Shown: in pieces, positions 10,516 through 42,084 of the stretch | Layout of the letters: every line of letters starts with the position of its first letter | Position numbering within the stretch: the stretch's first letter is position 1 | DNA from: Branchiibius hedensis | Lineage (GTDB): Bacteria; Actinomycetota; Actinomycetes; Actinomycetales; Dermatophilaceae | Reading direction: 5' to 3' | Length of the DNA stretch: 64,000 nt | NCBI RefSeq assembly: GCF_900108585.1 | Contig: NZ_UESZ01000001.1 | Coordinates: 3,286,001-3,350,000, forward strand | Program-made: the position numbers and the translations under genes | The notes under the pieces: generated by a model | What the model was told of the DNA's origin: nothing | Seen by the model: only the letters and a program-made list of their open reading frames with translations | Databases searched by the model: none

Positions 10516-10542
10516 CCTTGCCGCCACCACCCTTTCTTGCCA

Positions 10543-10556
10543 ACCAAGCGCTTGCT
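10543..10556. promoter_or_regulatory. KstR2-type operator 2 (fadD3 / fadA6 divergent promoters)
   Basis: ACCAAGCGCTTGCT fits the KstR2 motif exactly. On the plus strand it lies between a weak -35 (TTCTTG, 10534-10539) and TAGGAT (10556-10561), the same layout as at ipdA. It can control both fadD3 (minus) and fadA6 (plus). Confidence 0.88.
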
Positions 10557-10595
10557 AGGATTGCACCGATCCGATCGCGACACAAGGGAGCCCTC

Positions 10596-20773: not shown

Positions 20774-20787
20774 ACCAAGCGCTTGCT
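20774..20787. promoter_or_regulatory. KstR2-type operator 5 (LLM / FadD-FadA5 divergent units)
   Basis: ACCAAGCGCTTGCT fits the KstR2 motif fully and is extended by TG as in most copies. It sits between the divergent LLM gene and the five-gene plus-strand unit starting at 20814. Confidence 0.88.
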
Positions 20788-20813
20788 TGTCAATGGTGAG
20801 GAGAGGTACTCGC

Positions 20814-26164: not shown

Positions 26165-27674
26165 CTCTCCGACAGCTTCTGCGGACATCCCTGAGCAGTG
26201 GCGCCCCTTGCTGGAGGACCTGGCCCTACGGCAGGCGCAGGCGCTCGCGATGGGCGGGACCGAACGGCTCGAGCGGCTGGCCGAGCGCGGCGGCCGCGAT
26301 GCGCGGGCCTGGGTGAAGCTGCTCGTCGACCCGGATAGCTTCCGGGAGATCGGGCTGCTCGCCGGCTCCGTCGGTGACGGCATCGAGCCGCCACGCGCGG
26401 CGGACGGTTTCGTGGCGGGCACGGCGCGGATCGACGGCCGGGTGGTCTGCGTGGGGGTGGAGGATCCGACGGTCGCTGGCGGATCGATCGGAGTCCCCGG
26501 TGGTAGCAAGCGGGTCCGCTTGGCAATGCTCGCCGCCCAGTTGCACGCCCCGCTGATCCTGCTCCTGTCCGGGGCGGGGCACCGGGCCACCAACCCGCTG
26601 GCGCCCCACCGACCGGCGCCGCACGACTTGCAGATCCTGGCCGATCTGCACGGGGTCGTCCCGGTGTTGTCGGTGGTGACCGGGCCCTCGGCCGGTCACG
26701 GCGCCCTTGCCGCGCCGCTGTCCGACATCTGCGTGATGGTCCGCGGGCGAGGCGCGCTGTTCTCCGCCGGACCGCCGCTGGTGGCCGCCTCCATCGGCGA
26801 ACGTGTGGACGCCCAGGAGCTTGGGGGCGTTGACGTTCACGCGAGGGAGTCGGGGTTGGTGCACCTGGTGGCGGACGATGCCCCGGTCGCCGCCCTCGCC
26901 GTACGCCGAGTGCTTGGCTATCTGCCCGGCGGGCCCGTGCCGTCTACCGACCCGGCCGTCACGGCCGCCCGGGATCTGCCCGAATTGCTCGATCTGATCC
27001 CGGTCGATAGTCGCCGCCCGTTCGACATGCGACCGGTCGTGCAGGCCCTGACTGATGCTGGCAGCAGTATGGAACTGCAGCGCGATTACGGCGTCGGACT
27101 ATTGACCGTGCTCGCCCGGATCGGCGGTCACGCCGTGGCGATCGTTGCCAGCCAGCCGGCGGTGCTCGCCGGGTCCATCGACGTGGCGGCGGCCGACAAG
27201 GCGACGCACTTCATCGAACGGACCGGTCGGTGGGGACTGCCGCTGCTCCTGCTGGCCGACTCGCCGGGGATGCTGCCCGGCAGTTCATCTGAGCGGGCCG
27301 GAATCCTGCGGGCCGGCGCTGGCTTCTTCCTGGCCCAGCGGCGTTCGCCCGTCCCGAAGATTCACGTCACGGTCCGCAAGGCCTTCGGCTTCGGCAGTTC
27401 GGTCTTCGGTGCGAATCCCTTTGATCACCAGATGCGCTCGTTCGCCTTCCCCGGTGCCACGCTCGGCGGGATGCCCGCGGGGGTCGGCGGCGCGACGTCG
27501 GGAGCAGACGCGGCTCGCCGCGAGGAACTGCTGGCGGCTGAGGGCGCGGGACCGTGGCGATTTGCCTCCACCGGAACCTACGACGAGATCATCGATCCGC
27601 GGCAACTGCGCCGGGCGCTGATCGAGGTCCTCGGCCTGCCCGCTGCGGCACCTCGTGCCGGCGAGCCCGGCTGA
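26157..27674 (+). CDS. Acyl-CoA carboxylase carboxyltransferase subunit (AccD-like)
   Basis: A 505-residue protein of the biotin-dependent carboxyltransferase family. The N-lobe has FREIGLLAG...ADGFVAGTARIDGRVVCVGVEDPTVAGGSIGVPGGSKRVRLAMLAAQLHAPLILLLSGAGHR. The C-lobe has GHAVAIVASQPAVLAGSID, ADKATHFIERTGRWGLPLLLLADSPGMLPGSSSERAG and VTVRKAFGFGSSVFG. No biotin carboxylase or biotin carrier gene is near, so it would have to borrow a partner, act in reverse as a decarboxylase or transcarboxylase, or serve propionyl-CoA from the side chain. It closes the five-gene KstR2-controlled unit. Confidence 0.87.
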   Translation: MADSPTASADIPEQWRPLLEDLALRQAQALAMGGTERLERLAERGGRDARAWVKLLVDPDSFREIGLLAGSVGDGIEPPRAADGFVAGTARIDGRVVCVGVEDPTVAGGSIGVPGGSKRVRLAMLAAQLHAPLILLLSGAGHRATNPLAPHRPAPHDLQILADLHGVVPVLSVVTGPSAGHGALAAPLSDICVMVRGRGALFSAGPPLVAASIGERVDAQELGGVDVHARESGLVHLVADDAPVAALAVRRVLGYLPGGPVPSTDPAVTAARDLPELLDLIPVDSRRPFDMRPVVQALTDAGSSMELQRDYGVGLLTVLARIGGHAVAIVASQPAVLAGSIDVAAADKATHFIERTGRWGLPLLLLADSPGMLPGSSSERAGILRAGAGFFLAQRRSPVPKIHVTVRKAFGFGSSVFGANPFDHQMRSFAFPGATLGGMPAGVGGATSGADAARREELLAAEGAGPWRFASTGTYDEIIDPRQLRRALIEVLGLPAAAPRAGEPG

Positions 27675-28580: not shown

Positions 28581-29194
28581 TCCAGTTCTCCCAGCAGGGC
28601 ATCGACCGTCCGGTCGAGGACCTGGCGCACCTCGCCGACATCGCGCCCGGCGGCCACGGAGACCATCGCTCCGAGGAAGAGGAGGGACACCGACTCGGTG
28701 AGAGCGCGGCGATCGGGGGACGGATCGTCGTCTCCGGGGAAGAGCGCTTCCAGGATCCAACCGGCGCGGTCCGGCCCGAACGCCGGCAGTCCGGAGGCCA
28801 CGACGATCGACGCGGCGTCGGACAGATAGGCCCGCAGCAGCGCCCGGTAGAGCAAGGGGCGTGCGGCGATCTGTCGCATGATCCTGTCCAACACCACCCC
28901 AAGGCGAGTCGCCGGGGAGGCGTCGACCGCCAGTTCGGTGCGCACTGCGTGCGTCGACCGCTCGGATAGCGACAACAGCGCGTGGACCAGCAACTCATCC
29001 TTGGAGCCGACGAGTTGATAGGCGCGCGCCGCCGACATGCCGGCGGCGGCGGCGACCTCCCGGACGCCGGCGGCTTCGTACCCTCCGACTGCGGCCAGTT
29101 CGATGGCCGCGTCGGTCAGCGCGCGCAGTCCAGCCGCCTGGGCGGGCGAGAACGCTCGGGGGACCACCGTGGCATGAGCCGGGAATTCGAACAC
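28577..29194 (-). CDS. TetR-family regulator, KstR-like, next to the igr-like operon
   Basis: A 205-residue TetR protein: helix-turn-helix in the first 60 residues (TDAAIELAAVGGYEAAGVREVAAAAGMSAARAYQLVGSKDELLVHAL) and a ligand domain with RPLLYRALLRAYLSDAASIV. The pattern AAIELA..GG and PLL..A..RAY..D resembles mycobacterial KstR as I recall it. The GTG at 29194 lies 6 nt downstream of a TATAGT on the same strand, which suggests a leaderless transcript. An upstream GTG at 29209 is possible. It is divergent from the igr-like operon across a 20-bp palindrome, so it most likely represses that operon and itself. The ligand is unknown, plausibly a steroid CoA thioester. Confidence 0.83.
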   Translation of the reverse strand: MFEFPAHATVVPRAFSPAQAAGLRALTDAAIELAAVGGYEAAGVREVAAAAGMSAARAYQLVGSKDELLVHALLSLSERSTHAVRTELAVDASPATRLGVVLDRIMRQIAARPLLYRALLRAYLSDAASIVVASGLPAFGPDRAGWILEALFPGDDDPSPDRRALTESVSLLFLGAMVSVAAGRDVGEVRQVLDRTVDALLGELE

Positions 29195-29219
29195 GGTGGC
29201 ACTATACACGGGCGTCTCT

Positions 29220-29239
29220 ACAGTAGTCTAGACAACTGT
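29220..29239. promoter_or_regulatory. Predicted operator of the TetR regulator (igr-like operon)
   Basis: ACAGTAGTCTAGACAACTGT is a 20-bp inverted repeat that is perfect except for one symmetrical pair (positions 6 and 15). It sits between the divergent regulator and ChsE-like genes, 25 nt upstream of the plus-strand ATG. It shares nothing with the CAAGCGCTTG operators. Confidence 0.75.
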
Positions 29240-29263
29240 CTACAAGCGTGTCAGGATGCGGTC

Positions 29264-30430
29264 ATGCGACTCGAAGATACGGCCGAACAACTCCGGCTGC
29301 GCCATGAGCTTCGTGAGTACTTCGCAACCTTCATGCCCGCGGACGAACTGCGGGCGGCGGGTGAAGGTGGTGCCGGCGGTCCGCGGTTCCGGGAGGTGAC
29401 GCGCCGGCTCGGAGCCGATGGCTGGCTCGGACTCGGCTGGCCGAAGGAGTACGGCGGCCGCGGCCTGGGTCAACGCGACCAGTTCGTGTTCTTCGACGAG
29501 GTGCAGCGAGCCGGCGTGCCGTTCCCGTTCGTCACCGTCAACACCATCGGGCCGACCCTGATGAAGCTGGGCACGGCCCAGCAGCGCCAGCGGTATCTGC
29601 CCGGCATCCTGGCCGGCGAGATCGTCTTCGCGGTGGGTTACACCGAGCCGTCGGCCGGCACCGATCTCGCCGCGCTGCACACCCGGGCCGTCGCCGACGG
29701 TGACGAATGGGTGATCGACGGCAGCAAGGTCTTCACGACGGGAGGCAACACCGCCGATTTCATCTGGTTGGCGGTGCGCACGGGCGCGACGGACTCGCGG
29801 CATCGAGGTATCTCGATGGTCATCGTGCCGACCGACGACCCGGGCTACTCCTGGAGCCCGATCCGCACCGTCGGGGGGATGTCGGTGACCGCGACCTACT
29901 TCACCGGGATCAGGATCGGCGCCGACGCCTTCGTCGGTGGTGTCGATGGTGGGTGGCGGGTCATCACCGAGATGCTCAACCACGAGCGGGTGGGGTTGGC
30001 GGCCCTAGGTGGTCGCACGCTGGGCCTGTGGCAACGCGTATCGGACTGGGCGCGGGTGGAGGGACTGGTCGACGTCCCGTGGGTTCGCGCGGACCTTGCC
30101 GAGAGCTTCGCCCGGCTTGACGCGATGCGCCTGCTCAACTGGAGGATGACCGATCTGATGGCGCGCGGCGAGTTGGATGTCGCCGACGCCAGTGCCACCA
30201 AGGTCTACGGCACCGAGGCGCATATCGCCGTGCAACGCATCCTGCTGCGCGTCCTCGGCGCCAGGGGCCGGATCCGTCCCGACGAGCCCTGTGCAGTCCT
30301 CGCCGGAGAGTTGGAGCAACTGAGTCGCCAGAGCGTTGTCAACACGTTCGGTGGCGGGGTCAACGATGTCCTGCGTGACATGGTCGCCACGACGGGCTAC
30401 GGGTTGCCCCGGACGCCGCGGAGGGGGTAG
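29264..30430 (+). CDS. Acyl-CoA dehydrogenase, FadE29 (ChsE2)-like
   Basis: A 388-residue acyl-CoA dehydrogenase, close to FadE29 in length. It has GWLGLGWPKEYGGRG, the FAD segment FAVGYTEPSAGTDLAAL, DGSKVFTTGGNTADFIWLAVRTG and the C-terminal VNTFGGGVNDVLRDMVATTGYGLPR. In mycobacteria FadE28-FadE29 form a heterotetramer that dehydrogenates the C22 steroid propionyl-CoA side chain. The gene order here (dehydrogenase, ChsH2, dehydrogenase, ChsH1, Ltp2) is the igr operon with one dehydrogenase moved. ATG 29264 follows GTCAGGATGCGGTC; a longer open frame upstream runs through the operator and was rejected. Confidence 0.88.
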   Translation: MRLEDTAEQLRLRHELREYFATFMPADELRAAGEGGAGGPRFREVTRRLGADGWLGLGWPKEYGGRGLGQRDQFVFFDEVQRAGVPFPFVTVNTIGPTLMKLGTAQQRQRYLPGILAGEIVFAVGYTEPSAGTDLAALHTRAVADGDEWVIDGSKVFTTGGNTADFIWLAVRTGATDSRHRGISMVIVPTDDPGYSWSPIRTVGGMSVTATYFTGIRIGADAFVGGVDGGWRVITEMLNHERVGLAALGGRTLGLWQRVSDWARVEGLVDVPWVRADLAESFARLDAMRLLNWRMTDLMARGELDVADASATKVYGTEAHIAVQRILLRVLGARGRIRPDEPCAVLAGELEQLSRQSVVNTFGGGVNDVLRDMVATTGYGLPRTPRRG

Positions 30431-30434
30431 CGAC

Positions 30435-31409
30435 GTGAGCGACATCGCCGACGAGACTGCGACCATCGGGCCGAGTCCACAGCGCCGTGCCGAGATCGAG
30501 CAACGGCTGCAGGCGATGGTCGGCGAGCAACTCGGAGCACCGACATCGGCACGCTGGGCGGTGGATGAGGCGCGCATCGACCAGTGGGTCGAGGCGATGG
30601 GGATGGTGGCGCCCGAACCTGCCGGCCGTGCGCCGGCAGCGATGTTGCAGGCGTGGACCATGCGCGGCTATCGCAAGACGGTCGCAGGTCCGCCGGAGAG
30701 TAGCCGGGAGCTCTTCGCGTTGCTCGCCGAGCTGGGTTACACCTCAGTGGTCGCCACCGACTCCGACATCGACGTACGCCGACCGTTGGTCGTCGGTGAC
30801 CGGATCACCGTGACCGAGCGGCTGACCGAGATCACCCCGGAGAAGAAGACCGCGCTGGGCCCCGGTCGCTTCGTGACGACGAGCCGCACCTACACCGATG
30901 AAGGCGGGGAGGTTGTCGGCATCCAGCGCTGGCGGTTGCTGCGCTTCGCACCGCCCGTCCGCCAAGAGCGAGGTCCGAGCAGCGAAACAGCGCAGCGCGC
31001 CCCACGCCCCCGACCAGCCGTCAACCGCGACAATTCCTTCTTCTTCGACGCGGCGCGGCGTCATGAACTGGTCATTCAGCGGTGCTCCGCCTGCGGCCGG
31101 TTACGTCATCCCCCGGGACCGATGTGCCCGCACTGCCACAGCCTCGCGTTCGAGACGATCGAAGCATCGGGTCAGGGGACGGTCTTCAGCTACACGGTGG
31201 TCCATCACCCTCGCCACCCCGCGTTCGACTACCCGCTCGTGATCGCCGTGGTCCAGCTGTCCGAGGGAACCCGGCTGATCGCCGACGTCGTCGACGTGGA
31301 CCCAGCGCAGGTGCACATCGGGATGTCGGTATCCCTTGGCTGGCTGGATGCCGATCCCGACCTGACACTGCCGGTCTTCCGCCGGTCTGATCCCACCGCA
31401 AGGAGTTGA
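30435..31409 (+). CDS. chsH2: ChsH2-like MaoC-DUF35 fusion
   Basis: The 324-residue protein joins an N-terminal hotdog domain (residues about 1-175) to a C-terminal DUF35 domain (about 195-324). The DUF35 part has a zinc-ribbon with two CxxC pairs (CSACGRLRHPPGPMCPHC), then an OB-fold (GQGTVFSYTVVHHPRHPAFDYPLVIAVVQL). This architecture is specific to ChsH2. Its MaoC half pairs with ChsH1 to hydrate the side-chain enoyl-CoA, and its DUF35 half binds the aldolase Ltp2. The GTG follows GAGGGGGT with 4 nt after the dehydrogenase stop. Zinc ligands and the hotdog core look intact. Confidence 0.92.
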   Translation: MSDIADETATIGPSPQRRAEIEQRLQAMVGEQLGAPTSARWAVDEARIDQWVEAMGMVAPEPAGRAPAAMLQAWTMRGYRKTVAGPPESSRELFALLAELGYTSVVATDSDIDVRRPLVVGDRITVTERLTEITPEKKTALGPGRFVTTSRTYTDEGGEVVGIQRWRLLRFAPPVRQERGPSSETAQRAPRPRPAVNRDNSFFFDAARRHELVIQRCSACGRLRHPPGPMCPHCHSLAFETIEASGQGTVFSYTVVHHPRHPAFDYPLVIAVVQLSEGTRLIADVVDVDPAQVHIGMSVSLGWLDADPDLTLPVFRRSDPTARS

Positions 31410-31414
31410 GCGCC

Positions 31415-32560
31415 ATGGAATTCGCCTTGGACGATGTGTTGCGCGAGCTGCTGATGCTGGCCCGCGAGGTATTCGCCGACCACAGCGACCCGGAGCGACT
31501 CAGTGCCCTCGCATCGCAGGGATCGGCGGTCGACCCCGATCTCTGGGCAGCGCTGGCCGCGTCCGGACTGTTGGGTGTTTCGCTCCCCGAGCAGGTCGGC
31601 GGCGGCGACCTCGGGATGGTCGCCTTGGCCCTGGTGCTCGAGGAGCAAGGAGCGCACCTCGCGCAGGTGCCCCTCTGGTCGGCTGCGGTGGCCGCCCGCT
31701 GCATCGCGGCCGGCCCGCATGAGTTGGCCGGGGCGGTCCTACCGACCTACGTCGACGGTGGTTGCCGCATCGCGCTCGGTCTCGAGGAAGCCGCCAGCCC
31801 CGATTGCCTGTTGCCGACCACCTGGTGTGAGCCATCGGTCGGACAAGCCACCGTGCGGTCCGTTCCGGCCACGCACGTGGTCACCGGCGCCAAGGTTCTG
31901 ATTCCCGCCGGTGGCGATGCCGCTGTGTTGGTCCTTACCGCCATGACCGCCGACGGCCCGGTGGTCCTGGCTGTCGATCCCGAGGGCGCAGGGGTGCAGG
32001 CGACGATGTCGAGAACCACGTCGTGCGACACAGCGGCGACGGTGGACCTCGACCGTGCGCCGGCCGTCCAGGTGGCCGGGCCGGGTCCGGCGGGTGTCCC
32101 GCGACTTCTTGCGGAGGCGCAGACGGCGCTTGCCGCCTGCCAGACCGGGGTCGCACGGGGAGCCACCCGGCTCGCTGCCGACTACGTCAGCTCACGCGAG
32201 CAGTTCGGCCGGCCGATCGGCACCTTCCAGGCGGTGCAACACAAGGTCGCCGACTGCCACATCGACGTGTCCGCCCAGCGAGCGACGTGCTGGCAGGCGG
32301 CGTACGCCCTGGATGCCGCAGACACCCCCACCGACCAGACCCTCGCGCATGCCCATGTTGCGGCGTGGTGGGCTCAACGAGCGGGACTGGATGTCGTCCA
32401 CCGGGTACTGCACCTGCATGGCGGGATGGGCGTCGACGTCGACTATCCGGCGCACCGGTACTTCTTGCGCGGCAAGGAGAACGCCAGCTTCTTCGGCGCT
32501 CAACAGCAGTCGCTCGCCAGCCTCGGCACGCTGGTGGCCCTGGGCGGAGTCAGCGCGTGA
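31415..32560 (+). CDS. Acyl-CoA dehydrogenase, FadE28 (ChsE1)-like
   Basis: A 381-residue acyl-CoA dehydrogenase with a divergent, alanine-rich middle domain and the conserved C-terminal SREQFGRPIGTFQAVQHKVADCHIDV and LHLHGGMGVDVDYPAHRYFLRGKENASFFG. The HGGMGVD...YF signature and the weakened active-site region fit the FadE28-type partner in the ChsE1-ChsE2 complex. The ATG follows AAGGAG. The last codons overlap the ChsH1-like gene (GTGA). With the product of 29264-30430 it probably dehydrogenates a 2'-propanoate side chain attached at C17 of the steroid nucleus or HIP. Confidence 0.87.
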   Translation: MEFALDDVLRELLMLAREVFADHSDPERLSALASQGSAVDPDLWAALAASGLLGVSLPEQVGGGDLGMVALALVLEEQGAHLAQVPLWSAAVAARCIAAGPHELAGAVLPTYVDGGCRIALGLEEAASPDCLLPTTWCEPSVGQATVRSVPATHVVTGAKVLIPAGGDAAVLVLTAMTADGPVVLAVDPEGAGVQATMSRTTSCDTAATVDLDRAPAVQVAGPGPAGVPRLLAEAQTALAACQTGVARGATRLAADYVSSREQFGRPIGTFQAVQHKVADCHIDVSAQRATCWQAAYALDAADTPTDQTLAHAHVAAWWAQRAGLDVVHRVLHLHGGMGVDVDYPAHRYFLRGKENASFFGAQQQSLASLGTLVALGGVSA

Positions 32561-33015
32561 CCGAGCCACGGACCCAGACCCTGCCGCGACGGCTTCCCGA
32601 GGTGAGGATCCCGGTGGATCGCACGTTCGTCGTCGCCTCCGCGATGGCCTCGCAGGACTTCCAGGATGTACATCATGACCCGGACCTCGCTCGTGAGCGG
32701 GGAGCGCCGGACATTTTCCTGAACATCCTGACCAGCACCGGACTGGTCGAGCGACTCGTCACTGATTGGGCAGGCCCGGCTGTCACCGTCAACCGCCTGC
32801 AGATCCGCCTTGGGATGCCCTGTCATCCCGGTGATGAACTCGTCCTCACCGGGGAGGTCAGTGACGAGGACTCCGATCAGGTCGTGGTGCAGGTGCGGGG
32901 GACACACGAGCGGGGCGTCCATGTCTCCGGATCGGTCACGGTCGCCCTTCCCGAGGGAACGACGCTGGCAACGCTCAACGACGGTCGGCCGGCGATCGAG
33001 GAGCGTTCGCGATGA
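32557..33015 (+). CDS. chsH1: ChsH1-like MaoC hydratase subunit
   Basis: A 152-residue single-hotdog protein with the catalytic Asp34 and His39 (SQDFQDVHHDP) and the following helix PDIFLNILTSTGLVERLVTDWAG. It is the active partner of the ChsH2 hotdog domain in hydrating the C17 side-chain enoyl-CoA. The GTG overlaps the upstream dehydrogenase stop, and the stop overlaps the Ltp2-like ATG. It is clearly paralogous to the second half of the fused protein at 486-1490 (shared NIL..TGL and TDWAGP). Confidence 0.9.
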   Translation: MTEPRTQTLPRRLPEVRIPVDRTFVVASAMASQDFQDVHHDPDLARERGAPDIFLNILTSTGLVERLVTDWAGPAVTVNRLQIRLGMPCHPGDELVLTGEVSDEDSDQVVVQVRGTHERGVHVSGSVTVALPEGTTLATLNDGRPAIEERSR

Positions 33016-34196
33016 CACGACGGGGTCGCTCCATCTCCGGGCGGGCGGCAATCGTCGGCATCGGTGCCACGGAGTTCTCCAAGAACTCCGGGCGCAGTGA
33101 GTTGCAGTTGGCCTGCGAGGCAGTGCTCGCCGCGCTCCAGGATGCCGGGATCGCCCCCGCCGAGGTGGACGGCCTGTGCACCTTCACGATGGACAGCAGC
33201 GCGGAGATCCACGTGGCCCGCAACCTTGGCATGGACGATCTGCGCTTCTTTTCCCGCGTCGGTTATGGAGGCGGGGCAGCGTGCGGCACGGTCGCCCACG
33301 CCGCGATGGCGGTCGCCACCGGAATGGCCGACGTCGTCGTCTGCTACCGGGCCTTCAACGAGCGGTCCGGGGAGCGCTTCGGCCTCGGCCAGGCGGATCG
33401 TCCGATGAACACCTCCGCCGACCGGGCGGCGTACTCCTGGATGACGCCGTTCGGTCTGTCGACCCCGGCGCAGTGGGTCGCGATGTTCGCGATGCGCTAC
33501 TTGCACGTCTACGGGCGGTCGTCGCTGGACTTCGGGCGGGTGTCGGTCATCGACCGGGCGCGGGCCGCCACGAATCCCAAGGCCTACTTCTACGGTCGGC
33601 CGATCACGCTGGAGGAGCATCAAGAGTCGCGATGGATCTCTGAGCCGTTGCGGCTGTTGGACTGTTGCCAGGAGACGGACGGCGGCCAAGCCATCGTCGT
33701 TGTCTCCGCGGAGCGGGCGGCAGATCTGCCCGGTCCGCCCGCACTGATCGCCGCGGCCGCCCAGGGGAGTGCCAAGGATCAGCACATGATGACCAGCTAC
33801 TACCGAGACGATCTCACCTCGCTGCCCGAGATGGGCGTCGTCGCCCGGTCGCTCTTCGGTCAGGCCGGGATCACCGCCGCGGAGCTGGATGCCGCGATCC
33901 TCTACGACCACTTCACGCCGTTGGTGCTGCCGCAGTTGGAGGAGATGGGCTTGTGTGGTCGGGGGGAAGCGGCGGACTTCATCGCCGACGGTCACCTCGA
34001 CCTGGACGGGTCGCTCCCGCTGAACACGCACGGCGGGCAGCTCGGCGAGGCCTACCTGCATGGAATGAACGGAATCGCTGAGGCCGTCCGGCTGGTGCGC
34101 GGCACGTCGGTGAATCAGCCGCGCACGGTGGAGCGAGTGGTAGTGACAGCGGGCACCGGAGTCCCCACCAGCGGCTTGATTCTCGCCGCTCGATGA
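33012..34196 (+). CDS. ltp2: Ltp2-like steroid side-chain aldolase (thiolase fold)
   Basis: A 394-residue protein of the SCP2-thiolase group without the thiolase nucleophilic cysteine arrangement. Key parts are AAIVGIGATEFSKNSGRSELQLACEAVLAALQDAGI, YDHFTPLVLPQLEEMGLCGRGE and NTHGGQLGEAYLHGMNGI. Such proteins form a complex with the DUF35 domain of ChsH2 and carry out the retro-aldol cleavage that releases propionyl-CoA and leaves a 17-keto product. The ATG overlaps the ChsH1-like stop. It is the last gene of the operon, followed by a weak hairpin and then the liv promoter. Confidence 0.92.
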   Translation: MTRRGRSISGRAAIVGIGATEFSKNSGRSELQLACEAVLAALQDAGIAPAEVDGLCTFTMDSSAEIHVARNLGMDDLRFFSRVGYGGGAACGTVAHAAMAVATGMADVVVCYRAFNERSGERFGLGQADRPMNTSADRAAYSWMTPFGLSTPAQWVAMFAMRYLHVYGRSSLDFGRVSVIDRARAATNPKAYFYGRPITLEEHQESRWISEPLRLLDCCQETDGGQAIVVVSAERAADLPGPPALIAAAAQGSAKDQHMMTSYYRDDLTSLPEMGVVARSLFGQAGITAAELDAAILYDHFTPLVLPQLEEMGLCGRGEAADFIADGHLDLDGSLPLNTHGGQLGEAYLHGMNGIAEAVRLVRGTSVNQPRTVERVVVTAGTGVPTSGLILAAR

Positions 34197-34234: not shown

Positions 34235-34263
34235 TTGACGTGTGACGTGGGCCACTCTACGCT
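34235..34263 (+). promoter_or_regulatory. Predicted promoter of the liv-kstR2 operon
   Basis: TTGACG (34235-34240) and TACGCT (34258-34263) are separated by 17 nt, a good housekeeping-sigma promoter. The start point would fall near 34270, inside KstR2 operator 6. Confidence 0.65.
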
Positions 34264-34268: not shown

Positions 34269-34282
34269 AGCAAGCGCTTGGT
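34269..34282. promoter_or_regulatory. KstR2-type operator 6 (liv transporter and kstR2)
   Basis: AGCAAGCGCTTGGT fits the KstR2 motif fully and covers the predicted transcription start. It links the transporter to the catabolic regulon and makes kstR2 autoregulated. Confidence 0.88.
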
Positions 34283-34317
34283 TTATTGGCCCGCGTACCG
34301 CCTGGGAAGGACGATCA

Positions 34318-35541
34318 ATGAAGATCAGAGCAGTTCGAATTGTTGCTGTGGCAGTGGCCGCTGCTTCGCTCAGTCTCGCCGGTTGCGGGTCGTCCTCCGA
34401 CAGCTCCTCCGGCTCGAGCGGTGGCGCGGGTGACCCGTTCAAGCTCCTTGTGTCGGGTGCGGCATCCGGGCCGCTCGCCGCGCAAGGCAGCACCGCGATC
34501 AACGCGGCGAAGGCAGCGGCGGACAAGGTGAACTCCGAAGGTGGGGTCGCTGGACGAAAGATCCAGGTCACGGTCGTTGACGACCAAGGGGATCCGACAA
34601 CCGCCGTCTCGGTCCTGCAGCAAGCGATCGCCAAGGGCAAGCCCGATGCCTACATGAACTCCGGGCCATCGACCATCGCGGCAGCCACGTTGCCGATCCT
34701 GACCAACAACAAGATCTTGTCGTTCAACACCGGTCCCACGGCCGACTCGGACAACCCCGCCAAGTACCCGTACAACTTCGATCTCGCCCAGGACGCCGGG
34801 ACCGGCGTCAAGGGCATCGCCGAGGAACTGAAGAGCAAGGGCTACAAGAAGATCGGGGTCATCCACGGCAATAGCGCCTACGGGCAGACGTTCGGCAAGC
34901 TCGCCCAAAGCACCCTCTCCGACATGGGGATGACAGTCGTCGCGAATCAGGAGTACGACACGACCGCTTTGGACATGACCCCCCAGCTCGAGAACGTCAA
35001 GTCTGCGAACCCCGATGCTGTGGTGCTCGATGCCTACGGGGCTCCGGTCGGTTACGTGCTCAAAGGCGTCGAGAAGCTAAACTGGACCGTGCCGATCTAC
35101 GGGAACACCTCGGTGACGGCTACATCGCTCACGGGTATGCGCGCTCCTCAAGGGATCCTGGGCACCAAGGGTGCAGAGAATCTCCTGGTGGAGGCGACGC
35201 CGTCCTCGGTGTTCGACGCCAAAGCCACCGATGTCAACCAGGCCGTCGCGGCGATGGCGAAGCTGGCGCCGATCCAGACCAGTGTGATTCTCGCCGTCAA
35301 TTACGACGGCGTGCTCTTGATCAAGGCGGCGGCGGACAAGGTCGGCGCAGCGAACGACTCGACCAAGCTGGCCCAGGCTCTCACCGATTCGCAGGTGCAG
35401 AAGGACGCCAAGACGGTGATCACGCCGCTGTACGCCTACACGGCCACCAAGCACGCCCCATCGGCCGGCCTTGACAAGACGATCTACATCTTCGTCCAGC
35501 CAGCACCCGTCAAGAACGGCCAGATCCATCCCGAGAGCTGA
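34318..35541 (+). CDS. livK: LivK-like substrate-binding lipoprotein of ABC transporter
   Basis: The 407-residue protein has a lipoprotein signal: charged start, hydrophobic stretch and lipobox LAGC (Cys23), followed by a serine/glycine linker. The mature part is a periplasmic-binding-protein type I fold (Peripla_BP_6): VSGAASGPLAAQG at the start, GGVAGRKIQVTVVDDQGDPTTAVSVLQQAI, KKIGVIHGNSAYGQTFG and DAVVLDAYG. The family binds branched amino acids but also aromatic acids, amides and other carboxylates. Operator 6 and the ring-degradation neighbours suggest a steroid-derived carboxylate here. A ribosome site GGAAGG precedes the ATG. Confidence 0.92.
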   Translation: MKIRAVRIVAVAVAAASLSLAGCGSSSDSSSGSSGGAGDPFKLLVSGAASGPLAAQGSTAINAAKAAADKVNSEGGVAGRKIQVTVVDDQGDPTTAVSVLQQAIAKGKPDAYMNSGPSTIAAATLPILTNNKILSFNTGPTADSDNPAKYPYNFDLAQDAGTGVKGIAEELKSKGYKKIGVIHGNSAYGQTFGKLAQSTLSDMGMTVVANQEYDTTALDMTPQLENVKSANPDAVVLDAYGAPVGYVLKGVEKLNWTVPIYGNTSVTATSLTGMRAPQGILGTKGAENLLVEATPSSVFDAKATDVNQAVAAMAKLAPIQTSVILAVNYDGVLLIKAAADKVGAANDSTKLAQALTDSQVQKDAKTVITPLYAYTATKHAPSAGLDKTIYIFVQPAPVKNGQIHPES

Positions 35542-35556
35542 CCTCTCAACGTATGT

Positions 35557-35597
35557 CGCGCCCCGCGGACGGTCAGGTTTTTTCCGTCCGCGGGCGC
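35557..35597 (+). terminator. Intercistronic hairpin between livK and livH
   Basis: CGCGCCCCGCGGACGG (35557-35572) and CCGTCCGCGGGCGC (35584-35597) pair almost fully around a U-rich loop. No U-tract follows, so partial termination or stabilisation of the livK message is more likely than full termination. It would give more binding protein than permease. Confidence 0.65.
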
Positions 35598-35628
35598 ACA
35601 TCACGTGGGCACTCACCGAGGAGATTAG

Positions 35629-36486
35629 ATGACACTCGTTTGGGCGGCGCTGTCGACCGGCGGTATCTACGCGCTGGTCGCGTTCGGCTACAACATCGTG
35701 TACATGGGCTACCGCACCTTCAATTTCGCGCATGCCCAGTTGATGATGCTCGGCGCATTCATCGCATACACCGGCCTGGTCAGTTGGACGCTTCCTTCAG
35801 TCGTCGTGGCCGTGCTCGTGACAGTGGCAGTTCTCGTGGTTGCCGTCGTGGAGGAACGCATCGCCATCCGACCTCTGTCGGATATGCACAGCGCCCTCAT
35901 CACAACGCTCGGCGTGTCCGTGTTGTTGACCGGAGTATCCGAACTGGTCTGGGGATCGTCGCCGTTGACCGTCCCGTTCGCCGGCGGTAACGACCCTGTG
36001 CGCGTTCTGGGCGGCCAGGCCTATCCGGTCCAGTTCGCGATCGTCATCTTCGCGGTACTGCTGGTGCTTGCCTTCGAAGTGATCACCCGGCGTACGACGG
36101 TCGGCTTGTCGCTGATGGCGATCACCGAAGATCGCGAGGCCGCCATGCTGCGCGGGATCAACGTGCGGCTCCTTGCGCTGGGCACCTTCGCGGTGTCGGG
36201 AGCGGTGGCCGGCCTGTCCGGAATGTTGATCGGTCCATCGACCTACGCGGTTGCGACGCTGGGGTCCTCGTTGGCCCTCAAGGGGTTCGTGGCTCTCGCG
36301 CTCGGCGGCTTCGGGAACATGCCCGGTGCGCTCGTCGGCGGTATGACCGTCGGCTTCGTCGAGGCGGCGACCATCAGATATGTCGGGGCCGAGTACGCCA
36401 ACATCGCCGTCTTCCTGGTCCTGGTGGTTGTCCTCATGGCCCGCCCCACCGGGATATTCGTCCGGGCCCAGGAAAGGACCGTCTGA
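35629..36486 (+). CDS. livH: LivH-type ABC transporter permease
   Basis: A 285-residue polytopic membrane protein of the BPD_transp_2 (LivH) family. It has about eight hydrophobic helices and the family segments GGIYALVAFGYNIVYMGYRTFNFAHAQLMMLGAF and LGGFGNMPGALVGGMTVGFVEA (the EAA-like loop that contacts the ATPase). ATG 35629 follows GAGGAG. It ends in a TGATG overlap with the livM-livG fusion. It forms the membrane pore with the LivM half of the next protein. Confidence 0.92.
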   Translation: MTLVWAALSTGGIYALVAFGYNIVYMGYRTFNFAHAQLMMLGAFIAYTGLVSWTLPSVVVAVLVTVAVLVVAVVEERIAIRPLSDMHSALITTLGVSVLLTGVSELVWGSSPLTVPFAGGNDPVRVLGGQAYPVQFAIVIFAVLLVLAFEVITRRTTVGLSLMAITEDREAAMLRGINVRLLALGTFAVSGAVAGLSGMLIGPSTYAVATLGSSLALKGFVALALGGFGNMPGALVGGMTVGFVEAATIRYVGAEYANIAVFLVLVVVLMARPTGIFVRAQERTV

Positions 36487-38285
36487 TGCAGATATGGCGC
36501 GCCGTGCGGACGCTGCCTTCCTGGACCATTCCCGCCATAATCGGCGTACTCATCATCCTGGTCCCGTTCCTGGGCCTGGATTATGCACAAGTCCGACAGA
36601 TAGAGCTCGCACTCGTGTTGTCCCTGGTCACCAGTGGTCTCAATCTCTCTCTCGGTTACGCCGGTGAGTTGGCGCTCGGGCAAGCAGCGATGTACGCCGC
36701 GGGCGCCTACGCCGGCGCTCGCCTGTCCGTCAGTGGCCACACCGATCTGTTGCTGCAGCTGGTCGTGGCCGCCGCGGTTGCGCTGGTTGTCGGACTTGTC
36801 ACCGGCATCCCGGGGCTGCGACTGGGGTCGTGGTCGTTGGCCATGACGTCCTTCTTCCTCATCCTCATCGTGCCCGACGTGCTGAGCATGTTCCCTGACC
36901 AGACGGGTGGCCGTAATGGTCTGGTGGGGATCCAGCCGCCCACCGTGTTCGGCCAGGCACTCGGTGCCAATGGGCTTGCCGTGGCGATCGGGGTGGTGAG
37001 CGTCGTGTGGTTCTGGGTGATGCGCAACATCGTCACCTCCAGTTTCGGAACGCGATTCCGCATCTTGAAGCAGAGCCCGGTCCTGGCGTCCTCCATGGGC
37101 ATCCCGGTCTACCGGATGAAACTGCTCGCCTACGGGCTCGGGTCGATACCTGCTGGTCTGGGTGGAGCGCTGTTCGCCAACATCGACCTGTTCGTCGCTC
37201 CGGATTCCTTCGACTTCCACACGGTCACGACGTTGCTTGCGGCATCGATCCTGGGTGGCTCGACGAGTGTGTACGGCGCCGCGGTCGGATCGTTCATCAT
37301 GCAGTTCGGTCCGAACCAATCGAACGCCTTCCAGCAGTACTCGCTCATCTTCAGCGGCGCGTTCCTCCTGGTCGGCGGACTGTTGCTCAAAGGCGGCCTG
37401 GCGAGGTTGGGGAAGCTGGCCGTTCGGCGCCTTGACCAGTCGGCTCACATCACGCCGCCCGACTCGATCGCGCCGGAGGTGTTGCCGGATCCGGAGCCAG
37501 TCGCTGGGAGTGCCTTGGTCATCGAAGGGGTGAGTAAGGCATTCGGTGGGAACCGGGCATTGTCCGACGTGACGTTCACCGCGAAGCCAGGGCACGTCAC
37601 GGCACTCATCGGTCCCAACGGTTCGGGCAAGACGACGCTGCTCAACATGGTGTGTGGGTTCTATCGGGCAGACGGCGGCACGATCTCGCTGGGCGGCAAG
37701 CCGCTGCCGACCCGACATCCACATGAGGTGGCGCGAGCCGGCGTGTCGCGAACATTCCAGACTCCCAACATTCCCGAGGGCATGACAGTGCTCGAGGTCG
37801 TGAGGAGCGGACGGTCCGCGCGCGAGCGGGTTGGCCTCGTGCCGGCTGTCCTACGACTGCCTTCCTACCGGCGCGCTCGCGAGAGCGATCGCGGCGAGGC
37901 CTGGCGATTGCTCGAGTTGGTCGGCCTGGAAGGTCACGCTGCCGACGAAGCGATCTCCCTCCCGCTGGGGATGCGCCGGCTGCTCGAGGTCGCGCGCTGC
38001 TTGGCCTCGGGTGCGGGCGTGCTGATGTTGGACGAGGTCGCTTCGGGACTGGATGAGCACGAGGTGCCGCGACTGACAAACATCATTCGTGGCATCCGTG
38101 ATACGGGCGGCACGATCGTGCTGGTCGAGCACAATTTCGAACTGATCATGGGTCTCGCCGACGAGGTGGTGGCTCTGGCGCACGGGCAGGTGATCGCGCA
38201 CGGGAACCCCTCGGAGGTGGCCGCCAACGAGCAGGTGCGGCGGGAGTATCTCGGCGCGGCTGCGAGCACAGTGGGGCAGGCATGA
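36486..38285 (+). CDS. Fused LivM permease and LivG ATPase
   Basis: A 599-residue fusion. Residues about 1-310 are a LivM-type permease (LSLGYAGELALGQAAMYAAGAYAGA, and GGSTSVYGAAVGSFIM near the coupling loop). After a linker of about 35 residues comes a LivG-type ATPase with Walker A GPNGSGKTT, a Q-loop in SRTFQTPNIPEGMTV, Walker B VLMLDEVASGLD and the switch histidine in VLVEHNFELIM. The signature motif is degenerate (SLPLGMRRLLEVAR instead of LSGGQ). LivM and LivG are separate in the best-known systems. The protein completes the transporter with LivH, LivF and the lipoprotein. Confidence 0.92.
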   Translation: MQIWRAVRTLPSWTIPAIIGVLIILVPFLGLDYAQVRQIELALVLSLVTSGLNLSLGYAGELALGQAAMYAAGAYAGARLSVSGHTDLLLQLVVAAAVALVVGLVTGIPGLRLGSWSLAMTSFFLILIVPDVLSMFPDQTGGRNGLVGIQPPTVFGQALGANGLAVAIGVVSVVWFWVMRNIVTSSFGTRFRILKQSPVLASSMGIPVYRMKLLAYGLGSIPAGLGGALFANIDLFVAPDSFDFHTVTTLLAASILGGSTSVYGAAVGSFIMQFGPNQSNAFQQYSLIFSGAFLLVGGLLLKGGLARLGKLAVRRLDQSAHITPPDSIAPEVLPDPEPVAGSALVIEGVSKAFGGNRALSDVTFTAKPGHVTALIGPNGSGKTTLLNMVCGFYRADGGTISLGGKPLPTRHPHEVARAGVSRTFQTPNIPEGMTVLEVVRSGRSARERVGLVPAVLRLPSYRRARESDRGEAWRLLELVGLEGHAADEAISLPLGMRRLLEVARCLASGAGVLMLDEVASGLDEHEVPRLTNIIRGIRDTGGTIVLVEHNFELIMGLADEVVALAHGQVIAHGNPSEVAANEQVRREYLGAAASTVGQA

Positions 38286-39106
38286 CGTCGTCGACATCCG
38301 CGGTCGGCGCGCCGTCGCTCGAGGTGCGCACCCTTGCAACCGGGTACGGCGATCTGCAGGTCGTCTGGGATGTGTCCTTTGCCGTGCACCCGGGGCAGAT
38401 CACGGCACTGGTGGGACGCAACGGCTCGGGAAAGACCAGCACCCTGCGCGCCATTAGTGGTCTGAACAAACTCACGGGCGGCTCGGTCCATTTGTTGGGC
38501 GAGGATGCGGGCACGGCGGGTGTCGCTGAGCGGGTGCATCGCGGTCTCGCTTACGTGCAGGAGGGCAAACGGGTCTTCCGGCGACTCACCGTGGAGCAGA
38601 ATCTGATCCTCGGTGCGCACACTCGCCGGTTGTCGCGGACGGAACTGCGCGATCAACTCACCGGAACGTACGACCTCTTTCCGATCCTGCAGGAGAAGAG
38701 CGGCGCGCTGGCCGGCTCGATGTCCGGCGGCCAACAGCAGATGCTCGCCATCGGACAGGCGCTCATGGCCAAACCGCAGGTGCTGATGCTGGACGAGCCG
38801 TCGGGCGGCCTGGCGCCCGCCATTGTGGCGGAGGTCATGGCACGTATCGGCGCTCTCGCCGACGCGGGATTGGGAATCCTGCTCGTCGAGCAGTCGATCG
38901 ACGCCGCGCTCAATATCGCCCATGATGTCGTGGTGCTCGACAATGGACGGGTCAGTTTCGCCGGCCGCGTCTCGGAGAGTCATCCCGATCAGATCCGGGA
39001 GGCGGTCCTCGGGGAGTATGTCGGGGCTATAGGTTTGCAACGATCTAACAAGGCGGTCGGCTCGGTCGAGACGAAGGAGCAGGATATGGGCGGAAGGAGC
39101 CACTAG
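38282..39106 (+). CDS. livF: LivF-type ABC transporter ATPase
   Basis: A 274-residue ATPase with Walker A GRNGSGKTS, Q-loop region VQEGKRVFRRLTVEQNL, the signature SMSGGQQQMLAIGQALM, Walker B VLMLDEPSGGLAP and the switch region LLVEQSIDAAL. It overlaps the upstream fusion by ATGA and ends directly before the GTG of kstR2 (TAG then GTG). Its C-terminal tail beyond the usual LivF end is about 20 residues long and hydrophilic. Its signature motif is complete, whereas that of the LivG half is not, so hydrolysis may be asymmetric. Confidence 0.92.
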   Translation: MTSSTSAVGAPSLEVRTLATGYGDLQVVWDVSFAVHPGQITALVGRNGSGKTSTLRAISGLNKLTGGSVHLLGEDAGTAGVAERVHRGLAYVQEGKRVFRRLTVEQNLILGAHTRRLSRTELRDQLTGTYDLFPILQEKSGALAGSMSGGQQQMLAIGQALMAKPQVLMLDEPSGGLAPAIVAEVMARIGALADAGLGILLVEQSIDAALNIAHDVVVLDNGRVSFAGRVSESHPDQIREAVLGEYVGAIGLQRSNKAVGSVETKEQDMGGRSH

Positions 39107-39738
39107 GTGAGCCCGAGGAACAACGGGGGCTCGTCCGGCAGGGGCGAGGCCGATACCCTGCCGCAATCCGAACGGCGGCGCGAGCTCCTGGCGATCGCCG
39201 AGGACCTTTTCGCAACCAAGGGTTACGCCGAAACCACCGTCCGAGACATCGCCCAGCACGGCGGCATCCTTTCCGGCAGCCTGTACCACCACTTCTCGTC
39301 CAAGGACGAGATGGCGCACGAGATCCTCCGCTCGTTCGTTGACGACTTGCACACGAAGACTGCGGCGGCGGTGGCTGCCGGCGGATCGGCGACCGATCTG
39401 GTCGATCGCTTGGTGCGAGATGCGTTCGAGATCATCCACGAACGGCCGCTGACCGTGGCGCTTTACCAGAACGAAGCCTCCAGCCTGGCCACGCAACCGG
39501 GTTTCGGCTACCTGGTCGACGCCGGCCGCGAGGTGGAGCAGGTCTGGCGTAGCGCGATCATCAGCGGCCAGGAGGGCGGCGAGTTCCGCCCCGACCTGGA
39601 TGCCCGGATCCTCTATCGCTTCATCCGAGACACGGTGTGGTCGTCGGTCCGTTGGTATCGCCCGGGGGCAGCTACACCCCGACGGTGCTGGCCGACCAAT
39701 TCCTCGCACTGCTGCACGGCGGCCTGTTGCAGCGTTGA
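39107..39738 (+). pseudogene. kstR2: KstR2-like TetR regulator, single-base frameshift near the C-terminus
   Basis: The first 187 residues are a TetR protein that matches, as recalled, mycobacterial KstR2: helix-turn-helix ERRRELLAIAEDLFATKGYAETTVRDIAQHGGILSGSLYHHFSSKDEM, then ALYQNEASSLATQPGF and RPDLDARILYRFIRDTVWSSVRWYRPG. The frame is then lost at the C3G5 tract 39661-39668. One base shift restores GSYTPTVLADQFLALLHGGLLQR and a TGA at 39736-39738, the expected KstR2-type end. Without the shift the frame runs on antisense to the next gene as far as 40666. A sequencing error, a real mutation or -1 frameshifting at C CCG GGG are all possible. KstR2 represses HIP genes and is released by HIP-CoA. 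GTG start with GGAAGGAG upstream. Confidence 0.85.
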
Positions 39739-39781: not shown

Positions 39782-41353
39782 TCACCCGACCTGGCGAGTT
39801 TGACCCTGCCAATAACGCTGTCGCAGTGTAGGTTTGTCCGGTTTGCCGACGGCCGTCAGTGGGAGTTCGCTGACGATGTCGACGCTCTTCGGCGCGTGAC
39901 TGGGGCCTTTGCGCTCGCGCACAGCGGCGATGATGGCTGCCACGTCCGGGTGCTGACCGGGTTGAGGGACCACGACCGCCTTCACGGCCTCCCCCCACTT
40001 CGGGTCAGGTACGCCGATCACGGCGACCTCGGCGACCGCGGGCTGTGCGGAGATCACGTCCTCGATCTCCCGGGGGAAGACGTTGAATCCTCCCGAGATG
40101 ATGACGTCCTTGGTCCGGTCGACGATGGTCAGGAAGCCATCCGCGTCCTGGCGCGCGATGTCGCCGGTGTGCAACCATCCGCCGGCGAAGAGCCGATCGG
40201 TCTCCTCCGGCCGATTCCAATAGCCGTCGGTGACCAGGGGGCCACGCACGCAGACCTCTCCGGAGACACCAGGCGAGACCGCGGTCCCGTCCGGATCCAA
40301 CAGCGCCACCTCGAGCCAGGCGACGGGCCGACCGCAACTGGCGAGGCGCTCGAGATCGTCTTCACGGTGCTCGCTGCGTCGCATGACCGAGATCGTCATC
40401 GGCGATTCGGTCTGACCGTAGAACTGGAAGAAGATCGGCCCGAATCTGCGGATGGCCTCGGCCAAGCGACTGGGCGAGATGGGAGAAGCCCCGTAGTAGA
40501 TGACCTCCAGCGACGACACGTCGTAAGAGTCCAGATCCGGGTGATCGAGGATGGCGTAGAGCATCGTCGGCACCAACATCGTGGCCGTAATCCGTTCGCG
40601 CTGAACCGTTTCCAGGAAAGCCGTGGCGGAGAAGGCGGACATCGCGACCATCGAGCCGCCGCGTAGCAGCACAGGGATCCAGAATCCACCGGCAGCATGA
40701 CCGAGCGGCGTACAGAAGAGGAAGCGCAGCGTCGTCGGCCACTCCCATTCTGACAACTGGATCTGGGTGAGCATCGCGGTGCTCCGGTAGGTCCCGACGA
40801 CCCCCTTGGGCCGACCGGTCGAACCTCCGGTGTAGACCAGGCTGGAAGGTTGATCGGCGTGCACCTGAGGGGCCACCAACCGTCGCGGGGTGAACGTGTC
40901 GGCCAGGGTCACCAGATCGGTGCCGATGGGGGCCGGGCCGAGGGAGAACAGACGGGTCAGACCCGGCAGGCGCTCGGCGAGCGCCACGACGTGATCGGCG
41001 TACCCGGCAGGATCGAAGACCAGGGTGTCGATGCCGGCATCTTCCAGGACGAAAGCGTGGTCATCGAGCGAGCCCTTCGGGTGCAGCGCGGTGGCTCGCG
41101 TTGCGGTGAGGTACCCCGCCCCCAGCACGAAGAACACCTCGGGGCGGTTGGCCGAGAGGACGGCGACGGGGGTGCCAGGCATCACACCGGCGGCCGTATA
41201 CGCCTGGGCGAACTGGCTGATCCGATCCCGTAGCTGGGCGTAGGACAGCGTCGCCCCGGGCAGTTGGACAGCCGGGAGGCTGCGGCCGCGCGCGAGCGCC
41301 CGCACGAGCAGATCGGGCATGTACGCCGGGGCGCGGAGTCGGTCGGTGATCAT
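39782..41353 (-). CDS. Acyl-CoA synthetase (AMP-dependent)
   Basis: A 523-residue adenylating enzyme with SLVYTGGSTGRPKGVVGTYRS, FQFYGQTESPMTISVM, GEVCVRGPLVTDGYWNRPEETDRLFAGGWLHTGDIARQDADGFLTIVDRTKDVIISGGFNVFPREIE, and the catalytic lysine region LPLTAVGKPDKPTLR. The ATG overlaps the preceding SDR stop (ATGA). No KstR2 operator precedes this unit, so it lies beside the regulon rather than in it. Its substrate is unknown. It converges with kstR2, 43 nt away. Confidence 0.87.
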   Translation of the reverse strand: MITDRLRAPAYMPDLLVRALARGRSLPAVQLPGATLSYAQLRDRISQFAQAYTAAGVMPGTPVAVLSANRPEVFFVLGAGYLTATRATALHPKGSLDDHAFVLEDAGIDTLVFDPAGYADHVVALAERLPGLTRLFSLGPAPIGTDLVTLADTFTPRRLVAPQVHADQPSSLVYTGGSTGRPKGVVGTYRSTAMLTQIQLSEWEWPTTLRFLFCTPLGHAAGGFWIPVLLRGGSMVAMSAFSATAFLETVQRERITATMLVPTMLYAILDHPDLDSYDVSSLEVIYYGASPISPSRLAEAIRRFGPIFFQFYGQTESPMTISVMRRSEHREDDLERLASCGRPVAWLEVALLDPDGTAVSPGVSGEVCVRGPLVTDGYWNRPEETDRLFAGGWLHTGDIARQDADGFLTIVDRTKDVIISGGFNVFPREIEDVISAQPAVAEVAVIGVPDPKWGEAVKAVVVPQPGQHPDVAAIIAAVRERKGPSHAPKSVDIVSELPLTAVGKPDKPTLRQRYWQGQTRQVG

Positions 41354-42084
41354 GCGGTAGCTCCTCCATCGATAACGATTTCCGTGCCGGTCATGTAGCC
41401 GCTGGCATCGGACGCCAGGTAGGCGACGATGAATGCGACCTCCTCCGGCGTCCCCTTGCGGGGCACCGGAAGCAGGCTGAGGTCGGCGGTGCTGTTCTGC
41501 GTCATCGGGGTATCCACCGATCCGGGACAGACGCAGTTGACCCGGATCTGCCGTGGAGCCAGTTCCCCGGCGAGCGAGCGGGTGGCGCCACGCAGACCCC
41601 ACTTGGACGCCGCATAGGGGACGGCACCAGGGTGCCCGCGAAGGGCCGAGATGGAGGCGATGTTGATGATGGAGCCGCCCGGGGGCATCACGGGTACGAC
41701 CGCCTGGACACCCAGCAGTGGCCCGATCAGATTGACGTCCAACACGTGCCGAAGGTCTGCCTCCAGCCACGGCAGGAATTCGCCCGTCCGGTAGACGCCG
41801 GCGTTGTTGACCAGGACGTCGAGGTGGCCGTGCACCTCCACCGTGGCAGCCACGACATCGTCCCAGGAAGAGCGGGACGCCGTGTCGTGAGCCAACCCGG
41901 TCACTGAGGGCCCGAGCCGCCGGGCGACATCGGCGACCTCGGCGTGCAGCAGGTCGGTGGCGATCACCGTGGCCCCGAGGCTGGCGAAGAGTGCTGCTTC
42001 GGCGGCTCCCTGTCCGTGTGCGGCACCGGTGACCAGGGCGGTCTTTCCGGCGAGGGAGGGTGCGATTGTCGCCTCGCCGTTCAT
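41350..42084 (-). CDS. Short-chain dehydrogenase (3-alpha/20-beta-HSD-like)
   Basis: A 244-residue classical SDR: TGAAHGQGAAEAALFASLGATVIATDL, NNAGVYRTG, serine in NIASISALRGH, YxxxK as PYAASKWG, and the end SGYMTGTEIVIDGGATA. The TGAAHGQG glycine motif is common in 3-alpha,20-beta-hydroxysteroid dehydrogenases, so a steroid hydroxyl is a possible substrate. That is inference. It starts a two-gene unit with the downstream ligase gene; a CGGAGGA ribosome site lies before the ATG. An imperfect inverted repeat upstream does not match the KstR2 operator. Confidence 0.85.
   Translation of the reverse strand: MNGEATIAPSLAGKTALVTGAAHGQGAAEAALFASLGATVIATDLLHAEVADVARRLGPSVTGLAHDTASRSSWDDVVAATVEVHGHLDVLVNNAGVYRTGEFLPWLEADLRHVLDVNLIGPLLGVQAVVPVMPPGGSIINIASISALRGHPGAVPYAASKWGLRGATRSLAGELAPRQIRVNCVCPGSVDTPMTQNSTADLSLLPVPRKGTPEEVAFIVAYLASDASGYMTGTEIVIDGGATA

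Follow-up and report, generated by a model that had tools for sequence, protein, structure and literature searches.

We have analyzed a stretch of 64,000 nucleotides of the Branchiibius hedensis genome (contig NZ_UESZ01000001.1, positions 3,286,001 to 3,350,000), to which we refer as the window. At 34318-39106 there are four genes on the same strand, with intergenic gaps of 87 bases or less, that encode an ATP-binding cassette (ABC) importer of the LIV type. An earlier note on this DNA had described a complete LIV-type transporter lying under a KstR2 operator and directly before kstR2, and this arrangement is borne out by the genes, by the operator at 34269-34282 and by a KstR2 match of ~160 bits. 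The features of the importer region are as follows.

34235..34263, + strand: sigma-70-like promoter TTGACG-17-TACGCT before the importer, seen by eye
34269..34282, strand not assigned: KstR2-type operator AGCAAGCGCTTGGT, a perfect 14-mer, from a motif search
34318..35541, + strand: substrate-binding lipoprotein (SBP; Peripla_BP_6, LIV/HAAT type), from family match, alignment and fold model
35629..36486, + strand: LivH-type permease, from family match
36486..38285, + strand: LivM-LivG fusion (LivMG), with an N-terminal LivM permease and the LivG ATPase at residues 344-591, from family match
38282..39106, + strand: LivF-type ATPase, from family match
39107..39738, + strand: kstR2, directly after LivF, from structure-family match

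The subunit set of a LIV/HAAT importer is complete, comprising the Peripla_BP_6 lipoprotein, two permeases of the LivH/LivM type and two ATPases of the LivG/LivF type. The LivM-LivG fusion is matched as a single long protein in relatives too. By eye, the ATPase signature in the LivG part of the fusion and in a Thermomonospora protein (L095:3796-6456) reads LPLGMRR and not the usual LSGGQ-type sequence, and that of the window LivF reads MSGGQ. At the equivalent position before the importer of Thermomonospora echinospora (L095) there is a promoter TTGACG-17-TAGTCT, followed by AACAAGCGTTTGTT. The G+C fraction is 0.63-0.66 across the importer and kstR2 (window 34001-40000), compared with 0.68-0.72 in window 1-34000.

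The operator ends 35 bases before the start of the lipoprotein gene and fits AnCAAGnnCTTGnT, which we take to be the KstR2 motif. None of 200 shuffles of the importer upstream region matches as well. The window holds six perfect 14-mers, and CAAGNNCTTG occurs 25 times at one mismatch or fewer where 12.5 occurrences are expected, a number reached in 0 of 100 shuffles. Genome-wide there are 11 matches to the 14-mer, against 2 for a reversed control pattern. Seven of the 11 sit at one island, C1:3283569-3320282, the first of them 2.4 kb before the first base of the window. A match at C1:2003586 may be a chance occurrence because it falls within a long open reading frame, and the remaining three lie at C1:259288, 904492 and 3354550. 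Residues 21-189 of the kstR2 product match solved KstR2 structures with ~160 bits, and the next family scores 60. The gene shifts frame in a run of five G near 39667; the 23 residues that remain are encoded in the next frame, as far as 39738, and this tail (window 39660-39738) resembles other KstR2 proteins. The shift may be an assembly error or a genuine alteration of these residues.

Searches with the SBP alone reveal little of its family. A single-protein scan of genome contigs gave no close relatives, 396 genomes of the phylum returned at E 1e-60 only the protein itself, and 186 genomes of the family at E 1e-25 returned itself and two proteins at 29-31% identity. In 286 plasmid records all matches were below 60%, and the 15 matches listed are at 24-31%. 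The orthologous group surfaced only when the SBP of L095, a locus met in going through the surroundings of kstR2 in other genomes, was added as a second query. In that locus of T. echinospora the identities are 50% for the SBP, 59% for LivH, 62% for LivMG and 57% for LivF, within a differently ordered KstR2 cluster. An alignment of the two SBPs used against named genomes found 24 loci, 23 of them at 43-51% identity, the T. echinospora locus being here L167, with the same gene order as L095; the other (L178, 28%) is excluded from all counts of 23 below. The orthologues occur in Rhodococcus, Prescottella, Amycolatopsis, Thermomonospora, Actinomadura, Microbacterium, Arthrobacter and other genera, and in 16 of the 23 relatives the SBP is followed by LivH, LivMG and LivF. 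In four of the 23 (T. echinospora, Actinomadura rifamycini, Actinomadura sp. CNU-125 and Microbacterium luticocti) kstR2, fadD3 and ipdA/B all lie no farther than 10 kb from the SBP; in Arthrobacter sp. AQ5-05 the same is true of ipdA/B and a thiolase.

The operator accompanies the importer in these relatives. A KstR2-type site with 0-1 mismatch lies within 300 bases upstream of the SBP in 13 of 23 loci, each reached in no more than 2 of 200 shuffles. Three more loci (L170, L172 and L174) have the palindrome AACAAATGTTTGTT, which departs from the motif at 2 positions; 3, 18 and 6 of 200 shuffles, respectively, do as well. We compared the 18 loci without nearby C/D-ring genes, leaving out L162, L167, L170, L174 and L175, where such genes stand beside the SBP, with control upstream regions of genes from a simple purpose-made caller. 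The perfect operator is present in 6 of 18 SBP regions and in 0 of 258 other upstream regions (Fisher p 3e-8), and at 0-1 mismatch in 11 of 18 and 14 of 258 (Fisher p 7e-9). The 14 control regions all have 1 mismatch; 6 precede LivMG of the same operons, and 7 precede a pair of genes with a single site between them in closely related Rhodococcus. The counts among relatives are not independent because some loci come from near-identical species. In a tree of SBPs the orthologous group stands fully apart from two distant LIV proteins, with the window protein beside Arthrobacter and Microbacterium at a weak support of 0.118. The predicted link between operator and importer, spanning several genera, is the strongest new point of this analysis. 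Operator, position and conservation in other genera thus support placing the importer in the predicted KstR2 regulon.

The binding site of the SBP has been altered relative to that of LivJ. Thr102, Tyr150 and Tyr202 of LivJ are retained as Thr141, Tyr188 and Tyr240, and Glu226 has become Thr264, so that the acidic ligand for the amino group is lost. We take Glu226 to be the amino-group ligand of leucine binders, and likewise presume the roles of the other LivJ site residues. Among 21 aligned SBPs (alignment A4, without L161 and L174, which contain stop codons, and L173, which is in two pieces) Tyr240 is invariant and Thr141 nearly so. Because Glu226 is replaced by Thr264 while Thr141, Tyr188 and Tyr240 are kept, the site would fit an acid without an amino group. 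An AlphaFold2 model of the SBP has a standard LIV-type fold (pLDDT 84.7, pTM 0.83), and its closest solved structures include binders of 3-hydroxybenzoate, 4-hydroxybenzoate and p-coumarate. From the predicted regulation, the neighboring genes and the altered site we think it probable that the four genes encode a KstR2-regulated LIV-type importer of carboxylated C/D-ring steroid remnants, that is HIP-type perhydroindane acids.

Several observations weigh against this assignment. Leucine binders fit the fold model equally well, with Z of 34.8 compared with 34-36.5 for the aromatic-acid binders, and because the two tie the fold alone does not point to one kind of ligand. Ser79 of LivJ aligns with Pro117, which is adjoined by an invariant Ser118. 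In seven of the 23 relatives (L155-L158, L160, L171, L173) the SBP is not followed by any of LivH, LivMG and LivF, and seven (L155-L158, L162, L171, L173) have no convincing operator. Finally, an orthologous SBP or LivH lies within ~10 kb (less at contig ends) at only 1 of 84 other KstR2 loci: in the phylum sample no LIV operon lies around any of the other 24 matches to KstR2, and of 60 further loci in a class sample L095 alone has the complete set of four subunits. We rejected as orthologues five loci from a single other family (L123, L124, L131, L133 and L137), which have LivMG/LivF at 37-41% identity but SBP and LivH below threshold. Their LivMG/LivF genes lie ~4-8 kb from kstR2, with weaker pairs in L101 and L142, and are perhaps a second LIV lineage with the same role.

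The tie with leucine binders, together with the LIV-type fold and subunit set, is what would be expected of an ordinary transporter of branched-chain or other amino acids adjoining kstR2 by accident. We regard this as most improbable, since the SBP scores 65 bits in the LivJ/LivK assignment (PRK15404) against a cut-off of 477, has lost Glu226, and is accompanied in other genera by KstR2-type operators or clusters. An importer for a non-steroid carboxylic acid, whether aromatic, alicyclic or fatty, might instead have been recruited into the regulon. Aromatic-acid binders are among the nearest structures, the Thermomonospora curvata relative 4n03 is titled a fatty-acid binder, and more distant LIV genes also adjoin acyl-CoA ligase genes (L059). 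However, the recognized neighbors are C/D-ring genes where the importer adjoins kstR2, and the published effector of KstR2, in the portions of that literature available, is HIP-CoA. A non-steroid cargo is therefore unlikely, if a little less so than an amino acid.

The importer lies within a larger set of steroid genes in the window.

2487..11747, strand not assigned: C/D-ring genes, namely FadE-type, EchA20-type, SDR, IpdC/B/A-type, FadD3 (over its cut-off) and FadA6-type thiolase
20787..27674, + strand: CasI-like and CasG-like steroid acyl-CoA synthetases, steroid 3-ketoacyl-CoA thiolase, SDR and an acyl-CoA carboxylase-like gene, from family matches
28982..33015, + strand: ChsE-type acyl-CoA dehydrogenases, ChsH2-type protein (zf-ChsH2, OB_ChsH2_C) and MaoC-domain protein, from family matches
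33012..34196, + strand: Ltp2-type aldolase immediately upstream of the importer, matching PRK07855 'lipid-transfer protein' over the cut-off
39782..42084, - strand: FadD8-like acyl-CoA ligase and SDR, from family matches

The names IpdA/B/C, EchA20, FadA6, Ltp2 and ChsE were assigned from family matches and synteny with other KstR2 clusters, the PRK07855 match being presumed to be Ltp2. The CasI-like and CasG-like ligases fall below curated cut-offs, and the steroid 3-ketoacyl-CoA thiolase lies above its own. Homologues of the C/D-ring genes surround kstR2 in other genomes, and Rhodococcus/Prescottella loci have homologues of both the FadD8-like ligase and its SDR no more than 10 kb from the SBP. 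Counterparts of the side-chain proteins form a cluster elsewhere (genome of L057) that we read as cholate-type, with 66% identity for ChsE and 75% for Ltp2. In that genome and one other (L154), KstR2-like copies adjoin side-chain genes of the ChsE/ChsH/Ltp2 type. The earlier note had proposed a small water-soluble steroid remnant such as HIP as the cargo. Our reading keeps HIP-type acids, but because the island holds genes for C24- or C22-type side chains, other cargoes than plain HIP are likely too; in this organism the imported acid would perhaps still carry such a chain.

The operator at C1:3283569 is flanked on one side by what we read as a flavin monooxygenase, without NCBIfam match, and a LipL-like esterase below its cut-off, and on the other by a metallo-beta-lactamase-fold protein and an acyl-CoA ligase (L001:9027-14396, before the window). 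These genes possibly tie a ketone-to-lactone cleavage to the regulon. Open reading frames read as transposase-like stand beside the island, upstream of the window (L001:3545-7445), and the 105 other KstR2-bearing genomes of the class sample are all of the same class, with none of the same family or order. For both reasons the island may have been acquired. It appears to end near 42 kb; a DNA polymerase IV lies at 45175-46407 and a PknB-type kinase at 52177-54090.

Searches of the assembly (4.0 Mb, 98.85% complete) gave no match to KshA_C and none to MlaD/Mce, the MlaD-domain Mce proteins by which Mce4 would be recognized. A search with FAD_binding_2 for KstD gave eight matches (L062-L069). The sole long KstD-like flavoprotein among them (L062) is PRK12839/ChcC-like, reaches none of the curated cut-offs, is similar to dehydrogenases of alicyclic acids, and has neighbors that read as quinate/shikimate catabolism genes. 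Its best solved relative is nevertheless a 3-oxosteroid 1-dehydrogenase (7p18, 263 bits), so that it may have KstD-like activity. L063 matches PRK12834, L064 and L065 read by eye as NadB and SdhA, and L066-L069 are weak or partial matches. The one HsaC-type hit in the genome, and the best to a model of 2,3-dihydroxybiphenyl dioxygenase, is a protein like catechol 2,3-dioxygenase that falls just short of the cut-off for the latter enzyme. Judged by these matches, KshA and a clear HsaC are missing from the genome and KstD is doubtful; cyp125, hsaA, hsaB, hsaD, kshB and yrbE were not searched genome-wide. The lack of mce and ring A/B genes that the earlier note pointed out for the window extends to the genome for MlaD/Mce and KshA, with KstD in doubt. 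Ring A/B genes under the same operator are not to be expected even in full degraders, because there KstR, not KstR2, controls rings A and B, in so far as the sources available describe it.

Twenty-three of the 396 phylum genomes carry KstR2. KshA_C is matched in 18 of the 23, some of these matches being weak (G031, for example, at 31 bits) and perhaps not KshA, and MlaD in 15; the Mce search covered this genome and the 22 other KstR2 carriers, not M. luticocti. Neither KshA_C nor MlaD was found in this genome or in three from another family (G161, G182 and G193), so that kstR2 without either is not unique to B. hedensis. Four large genomes of one genus (G128, G161, G182 and G193) have kstR2 and no KshA_C, three of them also lacking MlaD. 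It may be common for C/D-ring clusters to occur where markers of rings A and B are missing.

It had been suggested that the island was built to finish remnants released by other degraders. This fits B. hedensis and M. luticocti, but it does not characterize the importer as such, since 18 of the 20 carriers covered (B. hedensis and the genomes of 19 of the 24 loci) have KshA. The two carriers in which KshA was not found are B. hedensis and M. luticocti; the completeness of the carrier genomes, that of M. luticocti included, is unreported. M. luticocti has C/D-ring genes, and no homologue of CasI, CasG or Ltp2 (E 1e-15) in ~100 kb around its importer. We tentatively propose, at somewhat less than an even chance, a guild of actinobacteria that do not degrade rings A and B and would feed on partly degraded steroid acids set free by other organisms, taken up through a KstR2-controlled LIV-type importer. 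B. hedensis (side chain and C/D rings) and M. luticocti (C/D-ring genes), of different genera and both without a KshA match, would be its examples. For the other carriers re-uptake of their own leaked intermediates, by analogy with CamABCD, is a simpler role and at least as likely.

This raises the alternative that the importer is itself CamABCD or its orthologue, made for the re-uptake of intermediates leaked by a complete cholate degrader and still present here although the pathway has been shortened. CamABCD reportedly goes back to work by Swain in 2012 on Rhodococcus jostii RHA1. In the accessible parts of the sources it is described as an ABC importer of cholate metabolites, ro04888-ro04885 (PMC6498646, PMC8399759), acting together with CamM, with cross-feeding on intermediates discussed (PMC8399759), and as re-importing released intermediates (PMC6678751, PMC12882949). 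In the type strain R. jostii NBRC 16295 there is an operon of four genes orthologous to the window importer (L168; SBP 46%, others 58-59%), under a 1-mismatch operator, and this operon may be camABCD. The presence of KshA in most carriers also agrees with such an origin. Against it, KshA is without a match in B. hedensis, and the search for HsaC found none there that could process an aromatic-A-ring substrate. The alternative works in the same way and overlaps with import of C/D-ring remnants, differing in role and maybe in a larger cargo, an A-ring-aromatized seco-steroid acid; we give it nearly an even chance.

For a KstR2-regulated importer of C/D-ring remnants we envisage the following mechanism. 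The lipoprotein would capture the acid at the membrane, LivH and LivM would form the channel, and LivG and LivF would hydrolyze ATP. The CoA ester would be made by FadD3 or by the CasI/CasG-like ligases, and HIP-CoA would then relieve repression by KstR2. Since HIP-CoA lifts this repression, we propose that uptake reinforces its own expression. As kstR2 follows on the same strand, it is probably cotranscribed with the importer.

Steroid uptake outside the mycolic-acid bacteria is a gap, and a conserved, operator-linked candidate in several genera, which include harmless and cultivated ones, makes it testable. The accessible part of PMC4810484 states that uptake systems in other taxa are not identified; further background came from parts of PMC5790920, PMC7593942 and PMC9782250. 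As a molecular marker, the importer could help to trace where steroid intermediates are cross-fed in soil, manure and sewage.

We found no description of a KstR2-controlled LIV importer in the open literature searched, subscription papers being outside its scope. The view of the earlier note that such an importer is undescribed is weakened by CamABCD, which may be of the same family, and by an 'ABC amino acid transporter' in a kstR2 cluster of Nocardioides simplex. According to the available text and tables of PMC7807495, this gene, KR76_25195, is the one most induced by phytosterol (59-fold) and belongs to cluster C, KR76_25015-25200 (Table 2), as do kstR2 (KR76_25115), fadD3 (KR76_25120) and second ipdA/B copies (KR76_25105/25110; Table 3); it is not discussed there as a steroid importer. 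Compared by description only, it is like the window importer in lying within the locus-tag range of a kstR2/fadD3 cluster and in its link to steroid, and may count in favor of our reading. The Mce4 sterol importer likewise feeds actinobacterial steroid catabolism, and B. hedensis has no MlaD-domain match. CamABCD, again compared by description in the sources available, is similarly an ABC importer tied to steroid catabolism that takes up partly degraded acidic steroid metabolites; it differs in its reported cargo, with an aromatized A-ring, and in its host, a full degrader. With the LIV/HAAT importers (LivKHMGF) and their aromatic-acid members the window importer shares the subunit set, the fold and several residues of the ligand site, but it has lost Glu226, has LivM fused to LivG, and stands under a KstR2-type operator. 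The importer joins two known things, the LIV-type importers and the ABC re-uptake of steroid metabolites.

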